Assembly (NCBI RefSeq): GCF_003403295.1
Contig: NZ_QUWV01000029.1
Location: 1 to 64,000, forward strand
DNA length: 64,000 nucleotides
Direction of reading: 5' to 3'
Source of the DNA: Komagataeibacter melaceti
GTDB lineage: Bacteria > Pseudomonadota > Alphaproteobacteria > Acetobacterales > Acetobacteraceae
In this document: positions 27,943 through 51,343 of the stretch, piece after piece
Position numbering within the stretch: position 1 is the first letter of the stretch
Layout of the letters: each line of letters opens with the position of its first letter
The notes under the pieces: model-generated
Database searches by the model: none
What the model saw: the letters and a program-made list of their open reading frames with translations, nothing else
What the model was told of the DNA's origin: nothing
Translations under genes and position numbers: made by a program

Positions 27943-27944
27943 TC

Positions 27945-28025
27945 CACCCGACCGGGGTGCCCGTTGTGATCGGGCTGAGATCATACCCGTTGAACCTGAT
28001 CTGGGTCATGCCAGCGAAGGGAGGC
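27945..28025 (+). promoter_or_regulatory. TPP riboswitch (THI element)
   Basis: The conserved core is easy to see: GGGGTGCC, then GGCTGAGA, ACCCGTTGAACCTGATCTGG, and GCCAGCGAAGGGA. The aptamer ends about 60 bases before the start codon of the ThiY-like gene. It therefore senses thiamine diphosphate and should repress the downstream precursor-uptake gene when TPP is plentiful. The spacer to the start contains GGAGAGGGA, the ribosome-binding site, so control may act at translation initiation. Confidence 0.95.
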
Positions 28026-28086
28026 TGACCTGTCGCGCCTGTTCCCTGCCTGCCGTGTTCCATGGATAATCGGAGAGGGAATTCCC

Positions 28087-40754: not shown

Positions 40755-42130
40755 GGGCGCGCGCCCTCCGGCCGGTTGCCGAAAATTGCCAGAAGGGCCG
40801 CTATTTTAAGCTGCATTTCACGGTATTCGCGCATCGGGTCGGAATCAAAGGTGATCCCGCCCCCGGCTGCGGCGGTAATATGCCGCCGCGTCATGACCAG
40901 CGTGCGGATGATGACGGAACTGTCCATGGCGCCATCATACCCGATCCACGCCACCACGCCGCAATAGGCCCCACGGGGCGAGGCCTCCAGTTCATCAATA
41001 ATCTGCATGGCGCGGTGTTTTGGCGCGCCGGTAACCGAACCGGGCGGCAGTGTGGCGCGCAACAGGTCCGGCGCATCACAGCCTGCGCGCAGCCGCCCCG
41101 TTACCTCCGACACCAGATGATGCACATGGGCGAACCGCTCGACGCCAAACAGTTCGGATACCCCGATACTGCCAAGCATGGCCACGCGCCCGATGTCGTT
41201 GCGCATGAGATCCACGATCATCAGGTTTTCCGCCCGTTCCTTTGCATCGTGGCGCAGGGTGTGGGCCAGGGCGTCATCCTCGGCGGCGGTCGTGCCGCGT
41301 GGCGCGGTGCCCTTGATGGGCCGGGTGCGGACCGTGCCATCGGGCGCAAGGGAGACAAACCGCTCGGGCGAGGCACTGAGGATGGCCCAGTCCCCATTGC
41401 CGGACAGGAACGCACCGAAGGGGGCTGGCGAATTCACACGCAGGTTCCGGTACACATCAACCGGCGCAAGCCCGTCGGGACGCTGCGCGCGCATGCGCCC
41501 GGTGATGTTGACCTGAAAGACCTCACCCGCCGCGATCCGCTCCACCGCGCAGGCCACATGCCGCCGGTAGGCCGCGTCATCCTGATCCGCCACAAAACGC
41601 ACATGGGGCAGGACGGGCGCGGGGGCCGGGGGTGCAACGGCTTCCCACTGCGCGATCAGTTCTGCTGCCCGCGCGGCGGCAAGGCCAGTCGGACTGGCCG
41701 TGGCCAGCCATGCCTCCCCCGTCAGGCGGTCAAGGATGAAGGCATGGTCGTACAGACCGAACGCCGCCTCCGGCTCGCGGGCCAGTGCGTGCCGTGTGCC
41801 TGTGCCCTCCATGCGCTGGCCCGCGCCATAACCGATAAAACCGATCATTCCCCCGGCGAAGGGCACCTGTGACGGGCATGTCCCGCCCATGGGCAGGCAC
41901 TGGCGCAGCAGCGTGGTGAGATCCCGCCCGTCGGGCTGGCCATCCAGCAGGCAGCGGCCCGCCTCCTGCACGATGACATGGAGCGGATCACGGCAAATGA
42001 CCGCCCAGCGCGCCCGCGCGCCCGCTTCCCCCCCGCTATCAAGGCAGGCCAGCCATGGCAGGTGCCCCCACGCGGCCAGAACGGCATCCATGTCCCGCCA
42101 TGGCAGGGACCACAGCCGGTCGCTATTCAT
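40751..42130 (-). CDS. pabB: Aminodeoxychorismate synthase component I
   Basis: Makes 4-amino-4-deoxychorismate from chorismate with ammonia. The protein (459 residues from ATG 42130) has the chorismate-binding C-terminal domain: EVFQVNITGR, SASPERFVSL, RTRPIKGTAPRG with the Lys typical of PabB (anthranilate synthases have Ala here), DLMRNDIGRV and GSVTGAPK. The frame is open further upstream but that part overlaps ptsI on the same strand in a different frame. The ATG overlaps the end of ptsI by 8 bases. Folate gene pair pabB-pabC thus sits at the tail of the PTS genes. No pabA is adjacent. Confidence 0.9.
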   Translation of the reverse strand: MNSDRLWSLPWRDMDAVLAAWGHLPWLACLDSGGEAGARARWAVICRDPLHVIVQEAGRCLLDGQPDGRDLTTLLRQCLPMGGTCPSQVPFAGGMIGFIGYGAGQRMEGTGTRHALAREPEAAFGLYDHAFILDRLTGEAWLATASPTGLAAARAAELIAQWEAVAPPAPAPVLPHVRFVADQDDAAYRRHVACAVERIAAGEVFQVNITGRMRAQRPDGLAPVDVYRNLRVNSPAPFGAFLSGNGDWAILSASPERFVSLAPDGTVRTRPIKGTAPRGTTAAEDDALAHTLRHDAKERAENLMIVDLMRNDIGRVAMLGSIGVSELFGVERFAHVHHLVSEVTGRLRAGCDAPDLLRATLPPGSVTGAPKHRAMQIIDELEASPRGAYCGVVAWIGYDGAMDSSVIIRTLVMTRRHITAAAGGGITFDSDPMREYREMQLKIAALLAIFGNRPEGARP

Positions 42131-43964
42131 CCGTGGGCGGGTGCATGCTGGCGGCGTAGGTATCCAGCATGGCGCTGACCTCCTGCCCGTCCACGGCTTC
42201 CAGCGCGCGGCTGGCCATGCGGCGGCAGTCATCCATCGAGACCGCCCTGATCGCGCGCTTGACGCGTGGCACGGCGGAGGCATGCATGGAAAAGGACCGC
42301 AGCCCAAGCCCCACCAGCAGGGGCACCGCCAGCGGGTCGGACGCCATTTCCCCACAGATCGAGACCGGCCTGCGCTGGCGCAGGGCCGCATCCGCCGTCA
42401 TGCGCACCAGTTGCAGCACGGCAGGGTGGAACGGGTCATACAGGGCGGCCACATCGGTTGCCGCCCGGTCCGCCGCGAGGGTGTACATGGTCAGGTCATT
42501 GGTGCCGATGGCAAAGAAATCCGCCTCCTGCGCCATGACATCGGCCATGAGGGCGGCGGCCGGGGTTTCGATCATGACGCCCAGCGGCGGCAGCGGATCG
42601 GGTATCTCCACGCCCTTGCGCCGCAGCCTGCGCCCGACGCGGGCATAAATCTCACGCGCGCGGCGCAGTTCCCCCACCGACGAGACAAGCGGCAGCATGA
42701 CCCGCACCGGCCCCGCGCGGGCCGCGCGCAGGATCGCGGCGAACTGTGTCTCGAGCAGCGTGCGGTGCTGGAGCAGCAGCCTTATGCCGCGTATGCCCAG
42801 CGCCGGGTTGGTATCTCCGCCATCGCCAATTCCCGCGCGCGCCAGGGCGTCACTGTTCTTCTCGCTGCCCCAGTCCACCACGCGAATCGTGACCGGATCG
42901 CCCGCCATGGCGGTAATCATGGGCTGATAGACCGCTTCCTGCTGGATTTCATCAGGCACGGTTTCGGCGTTCATGAACAGGAATTCGCTACGCAGCAGCC
43001 CGATGCCCGCCGCACCGGACTGCGCGATCATGGGCAGTTCGGCCGGAATTTCCAGATTGGCCTGAAGGGTCAGCACCTCCCCGCTGGAAAGCCGCGCGGG
43101 CAGGCGGCGCAGGCGGCCCAGCGTCTGGCGTTCACGTGCATAGGCCGCGACCTCCACCCGCGCGGCAGCCGCCGTGCGGGTGGACGGGCGCACGATGACC
43201 TGCCCGGTCGTGCCATTGACCACCAGCCGGGTACGCCGCCCCAGTTGCGCCAGAAGCCCGTGCGCCGCCAGCACGGCGGGCACACCCAGTGCGCGCAGCA
43301 GGATGGCGGTGTGGCCGGTGCTTCCGCCCTCCTCCGTCACGACGGCGGCAATGCGCGAGGGGTCAATCAGGGCGGCATCGGCGGGGCGTATCTGCTCGGC
43401 CACCAGAATGGCGCCATCGGGCAGGGCGGAAAAGGAACGGTAGGGCGTGCCGCTGAGGTTACGGATCAGCCTGCGCCCGATTTCACGGAATTCGCCCGCG
43501 CGGCGGCGGGCGGCCACGGCGTCCTCCCCTTCCGGCGCGGGCCTGCCGGGTGGGGCGAGCATGAATTCGGCCAGTGCCTCGGTTTCCTGCATCACGGCGG
43601 CTTCGGCCACCATGCCGTGGTCCAGCCGTGTCTCGATCCCACGGCGCAGGCGTGAGGGGCCAAGCATGCGCCGGTACACTTCCAGCAGGGAGCCGATTTC
43701 CACCTGCCCGTCTTCCGGCAGCAGCGAAAGGCGTTCATGCAGCCGCACGAGCTGGGCCACGGAACGGCTGACCGCATCATGCAGGCGGGCCCGCTCATGA
43801 GCGGGATCACAGTCGCGGCGCGTGGTGTCCACCGCCGGGGCCGCAGGTTCATGCGCGATGGCGGCATAGCCGATCGCGACACCGGGGGAGACAGGCTGCC
43901 CTTCCACCCGGACTTCCGCCGGGCGGGCGCGACGGGACGGGCGGCGTTCAGTCGTCTTCATCAA
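42123..43964 (-). CDS. ptsI: PTS enzyme I (phosphoenolpyruvate-protein phosphotransferase)
   Basis: Transfers phosphate from PEP to HPr. The 613-residue product covers the HPr-binding N domain, the phosphohistidine segment GGSTGHTAILLRALGVPAV (His at about 217), and the PEP-binding C domain with GIGLLRSEFLFM, GTNDLTMYTLAADR and SICGEMASDP (catalytic Cys). No N-terminal GAF domain is present, so it is not the nitrogen-PTS PtsP type. It starts inside the ptsH end (17-base overlap) and ends inside the pabB start. Confidence 0.93.
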   Translation of the reverse strand: MMKTTERRPSRRARPAEVRVEGQPVSPGVAIGYAAIAHEPAAPAVDTTRRDCDPAHERARLHDAVSRSVAQLVRLHERLSLLPEDGQVEIGSLLEVYRRMLGPSRLRRGIETRLDHGMVAEAAVMQETEALAEFMLAPPGRPAPEGEDAVAARRRAGEFREIGRRLIRNLSGTPYRSFSALPDGAILVAEQIRPADAALIDPSRIAAVVTEEGGSTGHTAILLRALGVPAVLAAHGLLAQLGRRTRLVVNGTTGQVIVRPSTRTAAAARVEVAAYARERQTLGRLRRLPARLSSGEVLTLQANLEIPAELPMIAQSGAAGIGLLRSEFLFMNAETVPDEIQQEAVYQPMITAMAGDPVTIRVVDWGSEKNSDALARAGIGDGGDTNPALGIRGIRLLLQHRTLLETQFAAILRAARAGPVRVMLPLVSSVGELRRAREIYARVGRRLRRKGVEIPDPLPPLGVMIETPAAALMADVMAQEADFFAIGTNDLTMYTLAADRAATDVAALYDPFHPAVLQLVRMTADAALRQRRPVSICGEMASDPLAVPLLVGLGLRSFSMHASAVPRVKRAIRAVSMDDCRRMASRALEAVDGQEVSAMLDTYAASMHPPTDE

Positions 43965-44238
43965 ACCCGGCCCCGACCAGCCTGACCAGGGCCGCCAGCG
44001 CCTGTGGCCCCTGTGGCCCCTGCGCGATGATGCGGATCGTCTCGCCCCGGCCCGCCCCCAGCATCATGAGCCCCATGATGGAATGGCCGCTGACCGTCAT
44101 ATCGGCATGGATGACATCAATGGACGCATCGAATTTTTCAGCAACCGTCACGAATTTCGCAGCCGCACGCGCATGCAGCCCGCGCTGGTTGACGATCCCC
44201 ACATCCGCCGTGTGGGCCATGTCCTGATCGCGCGCCAT
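43948..44238 (-). CDS. ptsH: Phosphocarrier protein HPr
   Basis: Small phosphocarrier of 96 residues. NQRGLHARAAAKF holds the active His (about residue 22) and GHSIMGLMML holds the regulatory Ser (about 53) phosphorylated by HprK. Three bases separate it from the upstream EIIA gene. With HprK and RapZ nearby this is a regulatory phosphorelay. Confidence 0.95.
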   Translation of the reverse strand: MARDQDMAHTADVGIVNQRGLHARAAAKFVTVAEKFDASIDVIHADMTVSGHSIMGLMMLGAGRGETIRIIAQGPQGPQALAALVRLVGAGFDEDD

Positions 44239-44241
44239 GGG

Positions 44242-44700
44242 TCAGTCCCCGTGCCCGGCGATGCTGTCGATCCCGTCCACACAGTCCCCCGTGCCGGACA
44301 GGCAGGCGGGCGGCAGGTGCGAGGCGACCGAGATGTAACGCCTGCCTGCCGTTTCCGCGCCCACAAGACATTCCTGCATGCTGGCATGGCCGCGCATCTG
44401 CGCCAGCTTGACCAGCATGGGCATGTTCACGCCCGCCAGTACTTCCACCCGGTCATTCTTCAGGGCGGAGATCGCGACATTGGAGGGCGTGCTGCCGAAC
44501 ATGTCGGTCAGCAGGATGACCCCTTCACCACTATCCACCGACTCGATGGTTTCAAGCAGGCCACAGCGGCAGGTTCCCGGCAGGGCGGAGGGGGAGACAC
44601 TGAACACCGCAAGCTGTGCCTGCGGGCCGACCACATGTTCGAGTTCCCCCTTGAGGGTCTCGCCCAGAACGCCGTGCATCACGAACACAAGGCCGATCAT
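44242..44700 (-). CDS. manX: PTS EIIA protein, mannose family
   Basis: A 152-residue stand-alone EIIA-Man-type domain. VFVMHGVLGETL carries the phosphorylatable His (residue 9), and LLTDMFGSTPSN near 64-75 is the family motif. There is no EIIB, EIIC or EIID gene, so it probably serves regulation instead of sugar uptake. The C-terminal 25 residues (after SVASHLPP) form an extra acidic tail. Its start overlaps the rapZ stop by 4 bases. Confidence 0.9.
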   Translation of the reverse strand: MIGLVFVMHGVLGETLKGELEHVVGPQAQLAVFSVSPSALPGTCRCGLLETIESVDSGEGVILLTDMFGSTPSNVAISALKNDRVEVLAGVNMPMLVKLAQMRGHASMQECLVGAETAGRRYISVASHLPPACLSGTGDCVDGIDSIAGHGD

Positions 44701-45680
44701 GCGTGGTCCGTCCGCTGCGTTGTCTCTGACAGCCCGCGCGGACGGTTGGCCCAGCGCCAGCTGCTCCGGCCCTGACGGGCCAGTTCACGGTGCATGACCA
44801 CAACCGGCCATGTCTCACGGGACGGATCATCCGCCCCGCGCTGCGCAAGCCTGCGCGCCAGTTCCTCCACAATGGTGACGGAGCGGTGCCGCCCGCCCGA
44901 ACAGCCCAGCGCGATGGTGGCGTATTTCTTCCCCTCCCGCACGAAACGCGGCAGGACGAGTTCCAGTATCCCCACGATCCGGTCAAGGAATTCAGGATAA
45001 TCCGGGTCCTGCGCCACATACTGCGCAACATCCGCATCCAGCCCCGTCATGGCGGACAGGGCGGGATCGTAATAGGGGTTGGTCAGGAAACGGGCGTCGA
45101 ACACCATATCGGCCTCCCGCGGGAGACCGGCGGGAAAGGCGAAGGACATGAGGGCCACCGTCAGCCCGTCCAGACCACCGGCCGACCATTCCCCGAACCG
45201 GGCCTCGACAAGCTGCCGCAGTTCGGGCGGCGGCAGGTCGGAGGTGTCGATCACCACATCAGCGGCTTCACGCAGGGGGGATGTCAGCTTGATTTCGGCC
45301 TCGATCCCTTCCTTCACGGTGCCATGCGCGGCCTGCGGGTGGCGCCTGCGGGTGGCGGTATAGCGGCTGAGCAGCACGCTTTCCTCGGCCGTGGCGTAAA
45401 TCAGTTCCGCGCTGAGGGCGGGGTTGACGCGCAGCCGCGCAAGGGCGGCCAGCACGGCGGAGGCATCAAACCCGCGCGTGCGCGAATCCACCCCCACCGC
45501 CACGGGCCGTTCGGCGCGGGCGACGATCTCGTCCAGCATGCCCAGCGGCGGGTTGTCGATCACTTCATGGCCCAGATCCTCCAGGATACGGAGAATCGAG
45601 GACTTTCCTGCCCCGGACAGGCCGGTTACCAGCAGGATGCGACGGGGAAGGGGCGTATCTTCATGCATGATGTCAGTCAC
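44697..45680 (-). CDS. rapZ: RapZ-type nucleotide-binding RNase adapter
   Basis: A 327-residue protein of the RapZ/YvcJ family. The Walker A motif TGLSGAGKSS is near residue 20. DNPPL follows, and the C-terminal domain has SFAFPAGLPREADMVFDARFLTNPYY and ALGCSGGRHRSV, both hallmarks. In enterobacteria RapZ controls an sRNA that tunes amino-sugar synthesis; in alphaproteobacteria its target is unclear. ATG at 45668 is another possible start. 125 bases separate it from hprK upstream. Confidence 0.93.
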   Translation of the reverse strand: MTDIMHEDTPLPRRILLVTGLSGAGKSSILRILEDLGHEVIDNPPLGMLDEIVARAERPVAVGVDSRTRGFDASAVLAALARLRVNPALSAELIYATAEESVLLSRYTATRRRHPQAAHGTVKEGIEAEIKLTSPLREAADVVIDTSDLPPPELRQLVEARFGEWSAGGLDGLTVALMSFAFPAGLPREADMVFDARFLTNPYYDPALSAMTGLDADVAQYVAQDPDYPEFLDRIVGILELVLPRFVREGKKYATIALGCSGGRHRSVTIVEELARRLAQRGADDPSRETWPVVVMHRELARQGRSSWRWANRPRGLSETTQRTDHA

Positions 45681-45805
45681 GCAGAACCAGACTTCCGTCA
45701 GCCATGTGCCATATGACAGATCGCTGTATCATGACGTGATCGAGACCTTTTTCCTGACCCTGTTCATTCCCTGCAAAGGGCGATAACGACAAAGCGGGCA
45801 CGGCA

Positions 45806-46249
45806 TCACACCTGCCCTTCATCCAGCAGATGGGCACGCCCCGCAACACAGTCCAGCACCAGCCCGACCCGGGCCACGGCGGATGGCTGCGCGGGATCAA
45901 GCAGAAATTCCGGCCTGCCCGTCACCTTATCACATCCCGGCCCGCGCGGCAGGCGCGCAGCATAGCCCTGCGGGGTCACCAGCCTTGCAACGGCGGCAAT
46001 GCGCACCCGCTCACGCCAGCCCATGCGTATGATCCCGATTCCCCTTACCTCCAGCAGCCCTGCAAGCCGTGGCGGGGCGCTGGCCCAGCCATCATGCACG
46101 CATACCCGGTCATCCGCCACAAGGTCATATCCCGCATCGACCAGCCGCAGCAGCAGGTCCGACTTGCCCGCGCCCGATGGCCCGACCAGCAGTATTCCCT
46201 GCTCATGCCGCGCCGCGCAGGAAGCATGGATCTGGACCGGATCGTTCAT
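45806..46249 (-). CDS. hprK: Short HPr kinase/phosphorylase
   Basis: The alphaproteobacterial short form: 147 residues, only the catalytic domain without the N-terminal half found in Firmicutes. Walker A is LVGPSGAGKSD (about 21-31), LVADD follows, and GLLEVRGIGI is the HprK signature. It should phosphorylate HPr on Ser. The gene is divergent from the RidA-like gene. No histidine kinase/response regulator pair lies upstream, unlike in many relatives. Confidence 0.92.
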   Translation of the reverse strand: MNDPVQIHASCAARHEQGILLVGPSGAGKSDLLLRLVDAGYDLVADDRVCVHDGWASAPPRLAGLLEVRGIGIIRMGWRERVRIAAVARLVTPQGYAARLPRGPGCDKVTGRPEFLLDPAQPSAVARVGLVLDCVAGRAHLLDEGQV

Positions 46250-49044: not shown

Positions 49045-50106
49045 TTACACCGCCCGGATGGTCTTGATCAGGTCGCCCACATGCTCGGGCGGCGTGGTGG
49101 GAATGACGCCATGGCCCAGGTTGAATACATGGGGCCGCCCCTTCATCGCATCGCGGATGGCACGGGCTTCCTGACGCATCCCTTCGCCCCCGGCAAGGAC
49201 GCGGATGGGGTCAAGGTTGCCCTGCAGCACCAGCGTTGCGGGCAGCTTTTCCGCCAGGGTCTTCATGTCCGCGCCGGTATCGAGCGCCAGCGCGTTCACG
49301 CCTGTCCGCTGGCCATATTCAACCGCCATGATCCCGGCCAGGCGGGGGAAGCCGATGACCGGCACGCCCGGATGGCGGGTGTTGATGATTTCGGTAATCC
49401 GGCGCGCCGGTTCAATGACATGCTGCCGGAACTGCGAGGGTGGCAGCAGCCCCGACCAGCTATCGAACAGCATCACCGCCTCGGCCCCGGCCTCGATCTG
49501 GGCACAGAGCATGTCGGCCGTCGATGTGGTCAGCAGGTCGATCAGGCGGTTGAAGAATTCGGGGTCGGTATAGGCCAGCCTGCGGGTTTCCTCGAACTCA
49601 CGCGAGCCATGGCCCTCGACCATGTAACAGGCCACCGTGAACGGTGCGCCCGCAAAGCCGATCAGCGTGACCTGTCCGGGCTGGGCGGGACCGATCGGCT
49701 CAGGGCCGTCAACGATCGCGCGCAGCCTCTTGAGCGTTTCCATGACCGGCTGCACCGCCTGCGCCACCCGGCCCGGATCGAGGCGTTCCATATCGGCCAG
49801 TGAACGCACCGGCTCCAGCACCGGCCCACGTCCGGCTACGAAATCCAGTGACTGGCCCATCGCCCATGGCAGAATCAGGATATCGGAAAACAGGATCGCG
49901 CCATCCATGCCGAAACGCCGGACGGGCTGGAGCGTTATGTCCACCGCCATGTCCGGTGTCATGCAGCGGGTCAGGAAACCGGCTTTTTCACGCAGGGCCC
50001 TGAATTCCGGCAGGAAACGCCCCGCCTGCCGCATCAGCCATACCGGAGGTGGCCATGTTGCCTCTCCCAACAGGGTGGCGAGCAGGGGTTTGCGTGTTTC
50101 AGTCAT
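49045..50106 (-). CDS. hemE: Uroporphyrinogen decarboxylase
   Basis: Converts uroporphyrinogen III to coproporphyrinogen III. The N-terminal VWLMRQAGRFLPE signature holds the conserved Arg, followed by FSDILILPWAMG with the catalytic Asp and the later GFAGAPFTVACYM. The length is about 353 residues. ATG 50106 (MTETRKP) matches family N termini; an ATG at 50127 adds 7 residues. It is divergent from maf across the candidate origin. In Caulobacter and Rickettsia the chromosome origin also lies next to hemE. Confidence 0.95.
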   Translation of the reverse strand: MTETRKPLLATLLGEATWPPPVWLMRQAGRFLPEFRALREKAGFLTRCMTPDMAVDITLQPVRRFGMDGAILFSDILILPWAMGQSLDFVAGRGPVLEPVRSLADMERLDPGRVAQAVQPVMETLKRLRAIVDGPEPIGPAQPGQVTLIGFAGAPFTVACYMVEGHGSREFEETRRLAYTDPEFFNRLIDLLTTSTADMLCAQIEAGAEAVMLFDSWSGLLPPSQFRQHVIEPARRITEIINTRHPGVPVIGFPRLAGIMAVEYGQRTGVNALALDTGADMKTLAEKLPATLVLQGNLDPIRVLAGGEGMRQEARAIRDAMKGRPHVFNLGHGVIPTTPPEHVGDLIKTIRAV

Positions 50107-50196
50107 CGATCCGTCGTTCTGTTTCATTGTGGCCGGACTATCTCGTACTTTCCGCCGGACGGATAGCGGGCAGGCGCGATGCGCGCGCTCCTTTCA

Positions 50197-50512
50197 AATC
50201 AATAAAAGAAAAGAGAAAGAAATTTTTTGATGTGCTTTAAGCGCTGTGGATGACGGGGTACCCGCACTTCCGAAAATGTACCCCACTTTTCCCACAGAGT
50301 GTACAGTTTCCGACTCCAAGGATTCCCGGGGGTCGGGGAAGTTATCCAGATTGTACCGACATAAGCCTGTGTACAACCCACCGCGAATGAAGGTGTACCC
50401 GTTGTCCACGGTACTCGGTACGGCGCAGAATTGTTTCGAGTACTGTCCCCATGTACCCCAGTACTCTCACGGGCGGAATTTTACGTTTCACTTCCACAGT
50501 ACGGAGAAGGCG
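50197..50512. other. Candidate chromosomal replication origin (oriC) between hemE and maf
   Basis: The gap between divergent hemE and maf has no gene. An A/T-rich, purine-run segment lies at 50197-50240. DnaA-box-like sites follow: TGTGGATGA (50245-50253, one mismatch on the reverse strand), TTTCCCACA (50288-50296), TTATCCAGA (50342-50350, one mismatch) and TTGTCCACG (50402-50410). GANTC sites of the CcrM type occur at 50312 and 50321, with two more at 50522 and 50561 in early maf. Twelve GTAC tetramers lie within 50258-50502. The hemE neighbour and strand arrangement fit an alphaproteobacterial origin; this is inference, not proof. Confidence 0.6.
50258..50502. repeat. Cluster of twelve GTAC tetramers
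   Basis: GTAC starts at 50258, 50278, 50301, 50353, 50371, 50395, 50411, 50418, 50440, 50453, 50461 and 50499, with two more inside early maf (50534, 50576). About one would be expected by chance in this length. Flanks vary (GGGTACCC, TGTACCCC, TGTACAAC, AGTACTGT), so the conserved unit is the palindrome itself. Confidence 0.85.
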
Positions 50513-51169
50513 ATGCCGGACGACTCGAATTTAGTACTAAAGGCCGCACCGTTACAGGCGGAGTCGCCCCCGATAGTACTGGCAAGCCGCTCCACAGCGC
50601 GCAGGAGCCTGCTGGAATCGGCGGGGCTGAAGGTGCGCTGCATGTCAGCGGATGTGGATGAACCCGCCATTCGCGACCATGCCCGCGCCCGTGGGCTGGA
50701 TGCGGACCAGACCGCGCTGGAACTCGCGCGGGCCAAGGCGCGCGCGGTCGGTATGGACAGCGGGACAGACAGGGGCGCGATCGTGATCGGGGCGGACCAG
50801 ATGCTGTCCTTTCAGGGCAGGTGGTTCGACAAGCCTGCAGGCGTGGCGCAGGCGCGCGAGCACCTGCGCATCCTGCGCGGGCGGTCCCATACACTGCATA
50901 CGGCAGTGGTGATGGTGCAGGACGGGTGCGAGATATGGCGCCATGTCGCCTGCCCGGTGCTGCATATGCGCCCGTTCAGCGATTCCTTTATGGAAAGTTA
51001 TCTGGCGGCGGAGGGGGAGACGATCCTGTCCTGCGTGGGCTGCTACCGGCTGGAAGGGCCGGGCATCCAGCTTTTTTCACGGATCGAGGGCGAATACGCC
51101 GCCATTCTGGGCCTGCCGCTGCTTGCGCTGCTGCGTGCGCTCCGGGCCCGGAATATCATCTTGCAATAA
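50513..51169 (+). CDS. maf: Maf-family nucleotide pyrophosphatase
   Basis: A 218-residue Maf/Ham1-like protein that probably hydrolyses modified or non-canonical nucleotides. IVLASRSTARRSLLESAGL at the start is the family hallmark, with GADQMLSFQGRWFDKP in the middle and CVGCYRLEGPGIQLFSRIEGEY near the end. ATG 50513 has GGAG six to nine bases upstream. The frame stays open back to 50246, but that part runs through the GTAC-rich candidate origin and shows no protein character. Confidence 0.88.
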   Translation: MPDDSNLVLKAAPLQAESPPIVLASRSTARRSLLESAGLKVRCMSADVDEPAIRDHARARGLDADQTALELARAKARAVGMDSGTDRGAIVIGADQMLSFQGRWFDKPAGVAQAREHLRILRGRSHTLHTAVVMVQDGCEIWRHVACPVLHMRPFSDSFMESYLAAEGETILSCVGCYRLEGPGIQLFSRIEGEYAAILGLPLLALLRALRARNIILQ

Positions 51170-51267: not shown

Positions 51268-51343
51268 GGGGCCATAGCTCAGTTGGGAGAGCGCCTGAAT
51301 GGCATTCAGGAGGTCAGGGGTTCGACTCCCCTTGGCTCCACCA
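51268..51343 (+). tRNA. tRNA-Ala (anticodon GGC)
   Basis: A 76-base cloverleaf: acceptor GGGGCCA/TGGCTCC, discriminator A, encoded CCA. Anticodon stem CCTGA/TCAGG holds loop ATGGCAT with GGC. The T arm contains GGTTCGACTCC. A short inverted repeat CCAGAT/ATCTGG (51341-51357) overlaps the 3' end. Confidence 0.96.

Follow-up and report, generated by a model that had tools for sequence, protein, structure and literature searches.

A conserved row of GTAC sites beside hemE in Komagataeibacter melaceti suggests a methylation-marked chromosomal replication origin

The gap between the hemE and maf genes of Komagataeibacter melaceti is very probably the chromosomal replication origin, a hemE-type alphaproteobacterial oriC, on support that is strongly indirect, and it holds a conserved row of GTAC sites which, together with a matching lone enzyme, suggests that the origin carries a chemical mark not described so far. 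We consider it fairly likely that this oriC is marked by N4-methylcytosine (m4C) at GTAC, placed by a solitary RsaI-related N4-cytosine methyltransferase, and that the mark gates initiation in the manner of Dam/SeqA. Taken as a claim of its own, that methylation regulates initiation is put forward more tentatively.

The window (the whole stretch of 64,000 nucleotides that was analysed) is contig 179 of a draft genome of 3.49 Mb in 248 contigs. A sequence-only reading of this DNA had proposed a candidate origin between divergent hemE and maf, and the gap lies exactly where that reading placed it, at 50128–50512, with hemE on the minus strand at 49045–50127 (Pfam URO-D, 1.1e-111) and maf on the plus strand at 50513–51169, its ATG at 50513 (Pfam Maf, 3.1e-43). 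The A/T-rich character that had been ascribed to the gap was borne out (A+T is 47.5% versus 35.3% across the window), as were the GANTC sites, of which a motif scan counted two (CcrM-type) within 50312–50325, and the tRNA-Ala gene to the right, found at 51268. To the left of the gap, a scan that took minus-strand ORFs only gave Pfam matches for eight of the nine ORFs scanned. HemE itself is ~89–91% identical to the products of six named Komagataeibacter loci and at most ~83% identical to those of the other named genera compared. The most A/T-rich 60 bp of the gap (50192–50251) have a G+C content of 28%, a value matched or undercut by 74 of the 63,940 60-bp windows scanned, and their plus strand is purine-rich, a feature that is also visible in the alignment of relatives' gaps; judging from composition, this stretch is likely to act as an unwinding element. 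Nine-mers that resemble the DnaA box, with at most two mismatches to TTATCCACA, number five in the gap (one more than the four counted earlier) versus 0.68 expected per 385 bp, a count that no other 385-bp stretch of the window exceeds. None of them is perfect: two have one mismatch (TCATCCACA on the minus strand at 50245–50253, the TGTG part of which is kept in at least 63 named loci, and TTATCCAGA on the plus strand at 50342–50350) and, by the same motif scan, three have two (TTTCCCACA on the plus strand at 50288–50296, TTGTACACA on the minus strand at 50368–50376 and TTGTCCACG on the plus strand at 50402–50410). Elsewhere in the window, Rfam places a TPP riboswitch on the plus strand at 27943–28039, and a minus-strand row of PTS enzyme I-like, RapZ-like and HPr-kinase-like genes occupies 42123–46249.

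The strongest signal in the gap, absent from the earlier reading, is its array of GTAC sites. The 385 bp contain 13 GTAC where 0.77 would be expected (Poisson P ~3e-12), and the maximum in any 385-bp stretch of the window outside the gap is four; in the draft genome as a whole, seven of the 18 triple-GTAC matches fall inside the gap and any other matching contig has one or two. To follow individual sites we used an alignment of 26 gaps, namely those of the 30 best-matching hemE loci minus four without an array at hemE, so that the gaps were selected for the array. A core of three sites on the plus strand (50258, 50278 and 50301, with spacings of 20 and 23; 50258–50304) is kept site by site in 26 of the 26 aligned gaps, as is the GTAC at 50371, which lies at the centre of the DnaA-box-like TTGTACACA; four of the 13 window sites are thus kept in every array-bearing gap. 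A second dense part, also on the plus strand (50411, 50418, 50440, 50453 and 50461; 50411–50464), is kept in 23, 22, 20, 25 and 19 of the 26 gaps, respectively, and the less conserved sites lie at 50145–50148 (7/26), 50353–50356 (4/26), 50395–50398 (11/26) and 50499–50502 (7/26). The spacings are kept as well, in the order 20, 23, ~70 and then often 7, 22, 13 and 8 in array-bearing gaps. Each gap has 6–13 GTAC, or 14.9–34.6 per kb, versus 0–3.6 per kb in the flanks (26 of the 30 best-matching hemE loci), and GTAC is the most enriched 4-mer in the 26 array-selected gaps, 23-fold over the flanks. The median conservation of the 13 window GTAC sites is 22/26 versus 3/26 for 4-mers not touching GTAC, and 20,000 random draws, each of 13 other 4-mers, never reached the conservation sum observed.

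A scan of named genomes with the spaced GTAC pattern returned at least 117 stretches, at least 63 of them from Acetobacteraceae. Among the matches listed, 61 of the 63 from this family are dense versus 5 of the 54 others, and those five resemble unrelated repeats; the Acetobacteraceae among the matches listed include Acetobacter, Gluconobacter, Komagataeibacter, Novacetimonas, Gluconacetobacter, Asaia, Commensalibacter, Bombella, Saccharibacter, Neokomagataea and others. The arrays of acetic acid bacteria consist of about 6–14 GTAC sites beside an A/T-rich stretch. A wide spread of the exact array beyond the family was considered and rejected: in a class-wide draw the spaced pattern was found in 4 of 385 genomes, which are four of the five family members drawn (G066 is without it) and none of the 380 others. 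Viral contigs gave 40 matches to the pattern, five of them dense, and in their first 120 bases these five resemble unrelated repeats or coding sequence. Dense short repeats of the GTACA/TGTAC type, unlike the acetic acid bacterial element, were seen in Rothia aeria (L061) and an uncultured alphaproteobacterium (L075), and Commensalibacter melissae (G122) carries an identical 37-bp triple-GTAC sequence twice (C1:338076 and C1:434827), perhaps as a repeated element.

All 17 genomes searched for methyltransferases have a CcrM-type enzyme, and 15 of them have a second PF01555 enzyme, which is missing from G029 and G045. The second enzyme is a beta-class methyltransferase that carries the motif SPPY, which we take to be of the m4C type. 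By sequence it matches 12 PDB entries, the best two of which are N4-cytosine methyltransferases and the fourth that of PvuII, with adenine enzymes such as CcrM and RsrI also among the 12; its below-cutoff NCBIfam matches likewise include adenine-specific families. An AlphaFold model made without an alignment had a mean pLDDT of 34.7 and was left out of the argument. In two genomes (G000 and G022, 1.5-kb flanks) the enzyme has MltA and di-haem peroxidase/MauG-type genes as neighbours. Relatives with 42% identity in Synechococcus phages Syn19 and ACG-2014j overlap a gene annotated as R.RsaI, a name given by the depositors; the two phage genes match the PADLOC type II restriction model (E 1.6e-11 and 0.0014) and no Pfam family. 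No neighbour annotated as R.RsaI stands beside the relatives in phage ACG-2014f (46%) or on a Paracoccus plasmid (52%). The likeness to RsaI restriction-modification lies in the type of enzyme, m4C at GTAC having been reported for M.RsaI of Rhodobacter blasticus (PMC6256690), and the difference is that the 1.5-kb flanks read in two genomes hold no restriction gene next to the enzyme. We link the enzyme to the array mainly because this RsaI route gives the same four letters independently, and GTAC is, on sequence relationships, probably the enzyme's target site.

The distribution of enzyme and array was compared across 150 family genomes, of which 145 have hemE; 130 hemE-upstream stretches were taken and 129 counted, that of G082 being too short. 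The SPPY methyltransferase occurs in 71 of the 150 genomes (54–100% identity). With an array at hemE defined as at least seven GTAC in 400 bp, 34 of the 129 genomes have one, and the enzyme is present in all 34, whereas none of the 62 enzyme-less genomes has an array there (maximum, four GTAC in 400 bp). The converse fails, as 33 of the 67 enzyme-bearing genomes are without an array at hemE, three of these having a displaced one. Of eight enzyme-bearing genomes examined from seven genera outside the acetic acid bacteria, seven have triple-GTAC matches; these are scattered and form no comparable array, apart from short GTAC runs in repeat-like sequence (G130 and G143) and a five-site group at hemE (G017). 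In a HemE tree of 50 of the 145 genomes (the 30 best matches and 20 chosen by hand), 39 acetic acid bacteria come together in a supported group; 36 of them have both enzyme and array and three have neither. These three make up two separate lineages inside the clade in which both are missing, G066 on the one hand and G029 with G116 on the other; G029 and G116 are compositionally unusual in the tree, and the co-occurrence rests on one clade.

A methylated GTAC array could act on initiation as follows. DnaA would load from the weak boxes beside the A/T-rich stretch at ~50192–50251; the GTAC sites would be fully methylated before initiation and hemimethylated after passage of the fork; and hemimethylated GTAC would alter the binding of DnaA or of another protein, so that re-initiation would be delayed. 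With at least one GTAC inside a DnaA-box-like TTGTACACA, methylation could act directly on DnaA binding. The strongest alternative also has the gap as oriC, with the GTAC sites binding a protein (DnaA at degenerate boxes, or another initiator or regulator) and methylation uninvolved; we regard it as less probable, though as a serious rival. What speaks for protein binding is, first, that conservation at some GTAC sites extends into the flanks beyond GTAC, as with the two-mismatch DnaA box TGTGTACAA at GTAC 50371, which is present in 63 of the 63 named Acetobacteraceae loci among the matches listed, loci that were themselves found via the GTAC pattern. Yet the flanks vary from site to site and GTAC is their common part, the enzyme and the array are jointly missing in two lineages, and the enzyme family has its RsaI link, all of which speaks against this alternative; the many deeper genomes that have the enzyme without the array speak for it.

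The DnaA boxes and DnaA proteins bear on the same choice. Perfect TTATCCACA boxes are found in the hemE–maf gap of the three genomes of the acetic acid clade that have neither enzyme nor array, 14 in G066, two in G029 and one in G116, and they are absent from 1.5 kb in 32 of the 34 array genomes. In the control, however, they are also absent from 1.5 kb in 68 of the 95 non-array genomes, so that absence of perfect boxes alone does not set array genomes apart. All 21 DnaA proteins aligned (that of G135, a 22nd, is not included) share the motif RDHTTVMHA, and the DnaA proteins of G029, G116 and G066 differ at domain IV positions outside this motif, a further point in favour of a role for protein binding. 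We weighed a shift in DnaA specificity as an explanation of the GTAC sites: the constant base-contact motif speaks against it, and the differences elsewhere in domain IV leave it some room. Two observations weaken the case for a role of methylation in initiation, namely that perfect DnaA boxes at hemE are missing from most non-array genomes too and that DnaA of the array-less lineages differs outside the motif compared. The 14 perfect boxes of G066 (L393) lie within ~270 bp, which is unusually dense.

Known cases of origin methylation are Dam/GATC and CcrM/GANTC, each with m6A. Dam, GATC and SeqA time re-initiation at oriC of E. coli, where the GATC sites are dense and carry m6A. The array resembles this system in its dense 4-bp palindromes within oriC and in the solitary methyltransferase, and differs from it in having GTAC and probably m4C rather than GATC and m6A; a further difference is that GTAC is not enriched upstream of dnaA (0–2 sites in 173–500 bp in 22 genomes). 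By analogy, the GTAC system may work like Dam/SeqA without being a member of it, the site being another and the base probably so. CcrM, which is tied to the cell cycle in Alphaproteobacteria, is likewise a solitary beta-class methyltransferase, and an enzyme of its type accompanies the second enzyme in these genomes; the site and the enzyme are different, and the gap has only two GANTC. No description of GTAC at the origin in acetic acid bacteria was found among the titles and abstracts listed by searches of the open-licence literature. More tentatively still, we propose a third origin-methylation system in acetic acid bacteria, in which m4C at GTAC from a solitary RsaI-like enzyme would time initiation, lineages without enzyme and array would use perfect DnaA boxes, and the element as a whole could occupy a new chromosomal site. 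If true, an m4C origin system would be an independent invention and a housekeeping role for m4C, and a compact oriC would become available for vectors. The methylation idea lends itself to a direct test in the two lineages that naturally have neither enzyme nor array.

That the gap is an oriC had been offered by the sequence-only reading as the best explanation, and this is supported by GC skew in relatives, the proximity of parS, the remoteness of dnaA and Caulobacter-type flanks in two deep relatives. Inside the window, cumulative GC skew is lowest at 48–50 kb (−0.57), with a second dip of −0.54 near 55–60 kb. Skew was sampled in relatives because the window's own genome, in 248 contigs, is too fragmented, and twenty 20-kb stretches each were taken along the chromosomes of G060 (same genus), G149 and G025. 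In G060 the negative-to-positive turn of the skew falls within −27 to +33 kb of hemE, in G149 it falls within −103 to +56 kb, and in G025 it lies to the left of hemE, at −125 to −25 kb. In G122 the local skew minimum coincides with the edge of the array; its distance from the array is ~3 kb in both G135 and G149, 8 kb in G060 and 30 kb in G025, where it falls at parS. The fine skew of G122 and G135 covers 40 and 58 kb around the locus, respectively. The gene order of G025 at C1:1.84–1.875 Mb is unlike that of relatives, which suggests a rearrangement near the origin. In each of the 11 array genomes tabulated, a search for parS (TGTTTCACGTGAAACA, at most one mismatch) found it at a distance of 9–123 kb from the array, and in all of them dnaA lies at 66–100% of the half-chromosome from the array. 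The table holds 11 of the 15 genomes searched and leaves out G000 (in pieces), G029 and G045 (without array) and G100. G045, which has neither array nor enzyme, gave no parS match at up to one mismatch, and G100 has four parS within ~37 kb of hemE and one at ~249 kb.

The flanks of the gap point the same way. In G100 and G017, which are deeper members of the family, the gap is separated from maf by a gene of PF03618 (kinase-pyrophosphorylase), a family that we take to be COG1806/DUF299. The earlier statement that the origin is beside hemE in Caulobacter and Rickettsia agrees with the source, which puts both origins in a hemE–COG1806 neighbourhood (PMC1914354). With the origins of Caulobacter crescentus (Cori) and Rickettsia prowazekii the window shares the hemE flank, an A/T-rich stretch and DnaA-box-like sites, the two deep relatives in addition keeping the COG1806-type gene on the other side, and it differs from them in having maf in place of COG1806 and a dense GTAC array. 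It differs also in that the gap holds no strict-consensus CtrA (TTAA-N7-TTAA) or IHF site, going by the consensuses we adopted for the scan; such sites are Caulobacter regulatory features, and origin function is generally independent of them.

An origin beside dnaA, which would make the hemE gap something else, is very improbable. It has in its favour that oriC was placed near dnaA in Acetobacter pasteurianus 386B and A. cerevisiae KSO5 by two papers (PMC3751514, PMC13209655), and that dnaA is only ~185 kb from hemE in G100. The remoteness of dnaA in all 11 tabulated array genomes argues against it, however, and skew has no sign change at dnaA in G060 or G149, while the change near dnaA in G025 has the sign of a terminus. 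Moreover, the KSO5 paper identified the origin with the skew maximum; the parS region of the relatives that we sampled, by contrast, lies near the skew minimum. The relatives sampled speak against the dnaA-proximal rule of the two Acetobacter papers. If the hemE gap is indeed the oriC, origin placement would be corrected in industrial acetic acid bacteria, for which the two papers give a site near dnaA.

The array is also found away from hemE. In G118, G032 and G101 the hemE gap is without an array, and the array lies 20–26 kb from hemE (~25 kb in G032 and G118). In G032 (Bombella dulcis) it has a gene for gluconate 2-dehydrogenase subunit 3 on one side and one for a GMC oxidoreductase on the other (Pfam, L151), and neighbours of the same kind, judged from translations, flank it in two other Bombella, in Saccharibacter floricola and in an uncultured relative. 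The GTAC array is thus an autonomous unit, and the origin appears to have moved in the lineages with the GTAC element away from hemE. That the gap merely regulates hemE and maf and is no origin, as might be thought of divergent genes whose promoters it presumably must hold, is likewise very improbable, given that the array stands apart from hemE and maf in G118, G032, G101 and the Bombella and Saccharibacter loci, a distance of 20–26 kb in some genomes arguing against a hemE/maf control region, and that skew and parS point to the gap. The loci at which we saw a gluconate 2-dehydrogenase-type neighbourhood of the GTAC element are L151, L121, L100, L125 and L065.
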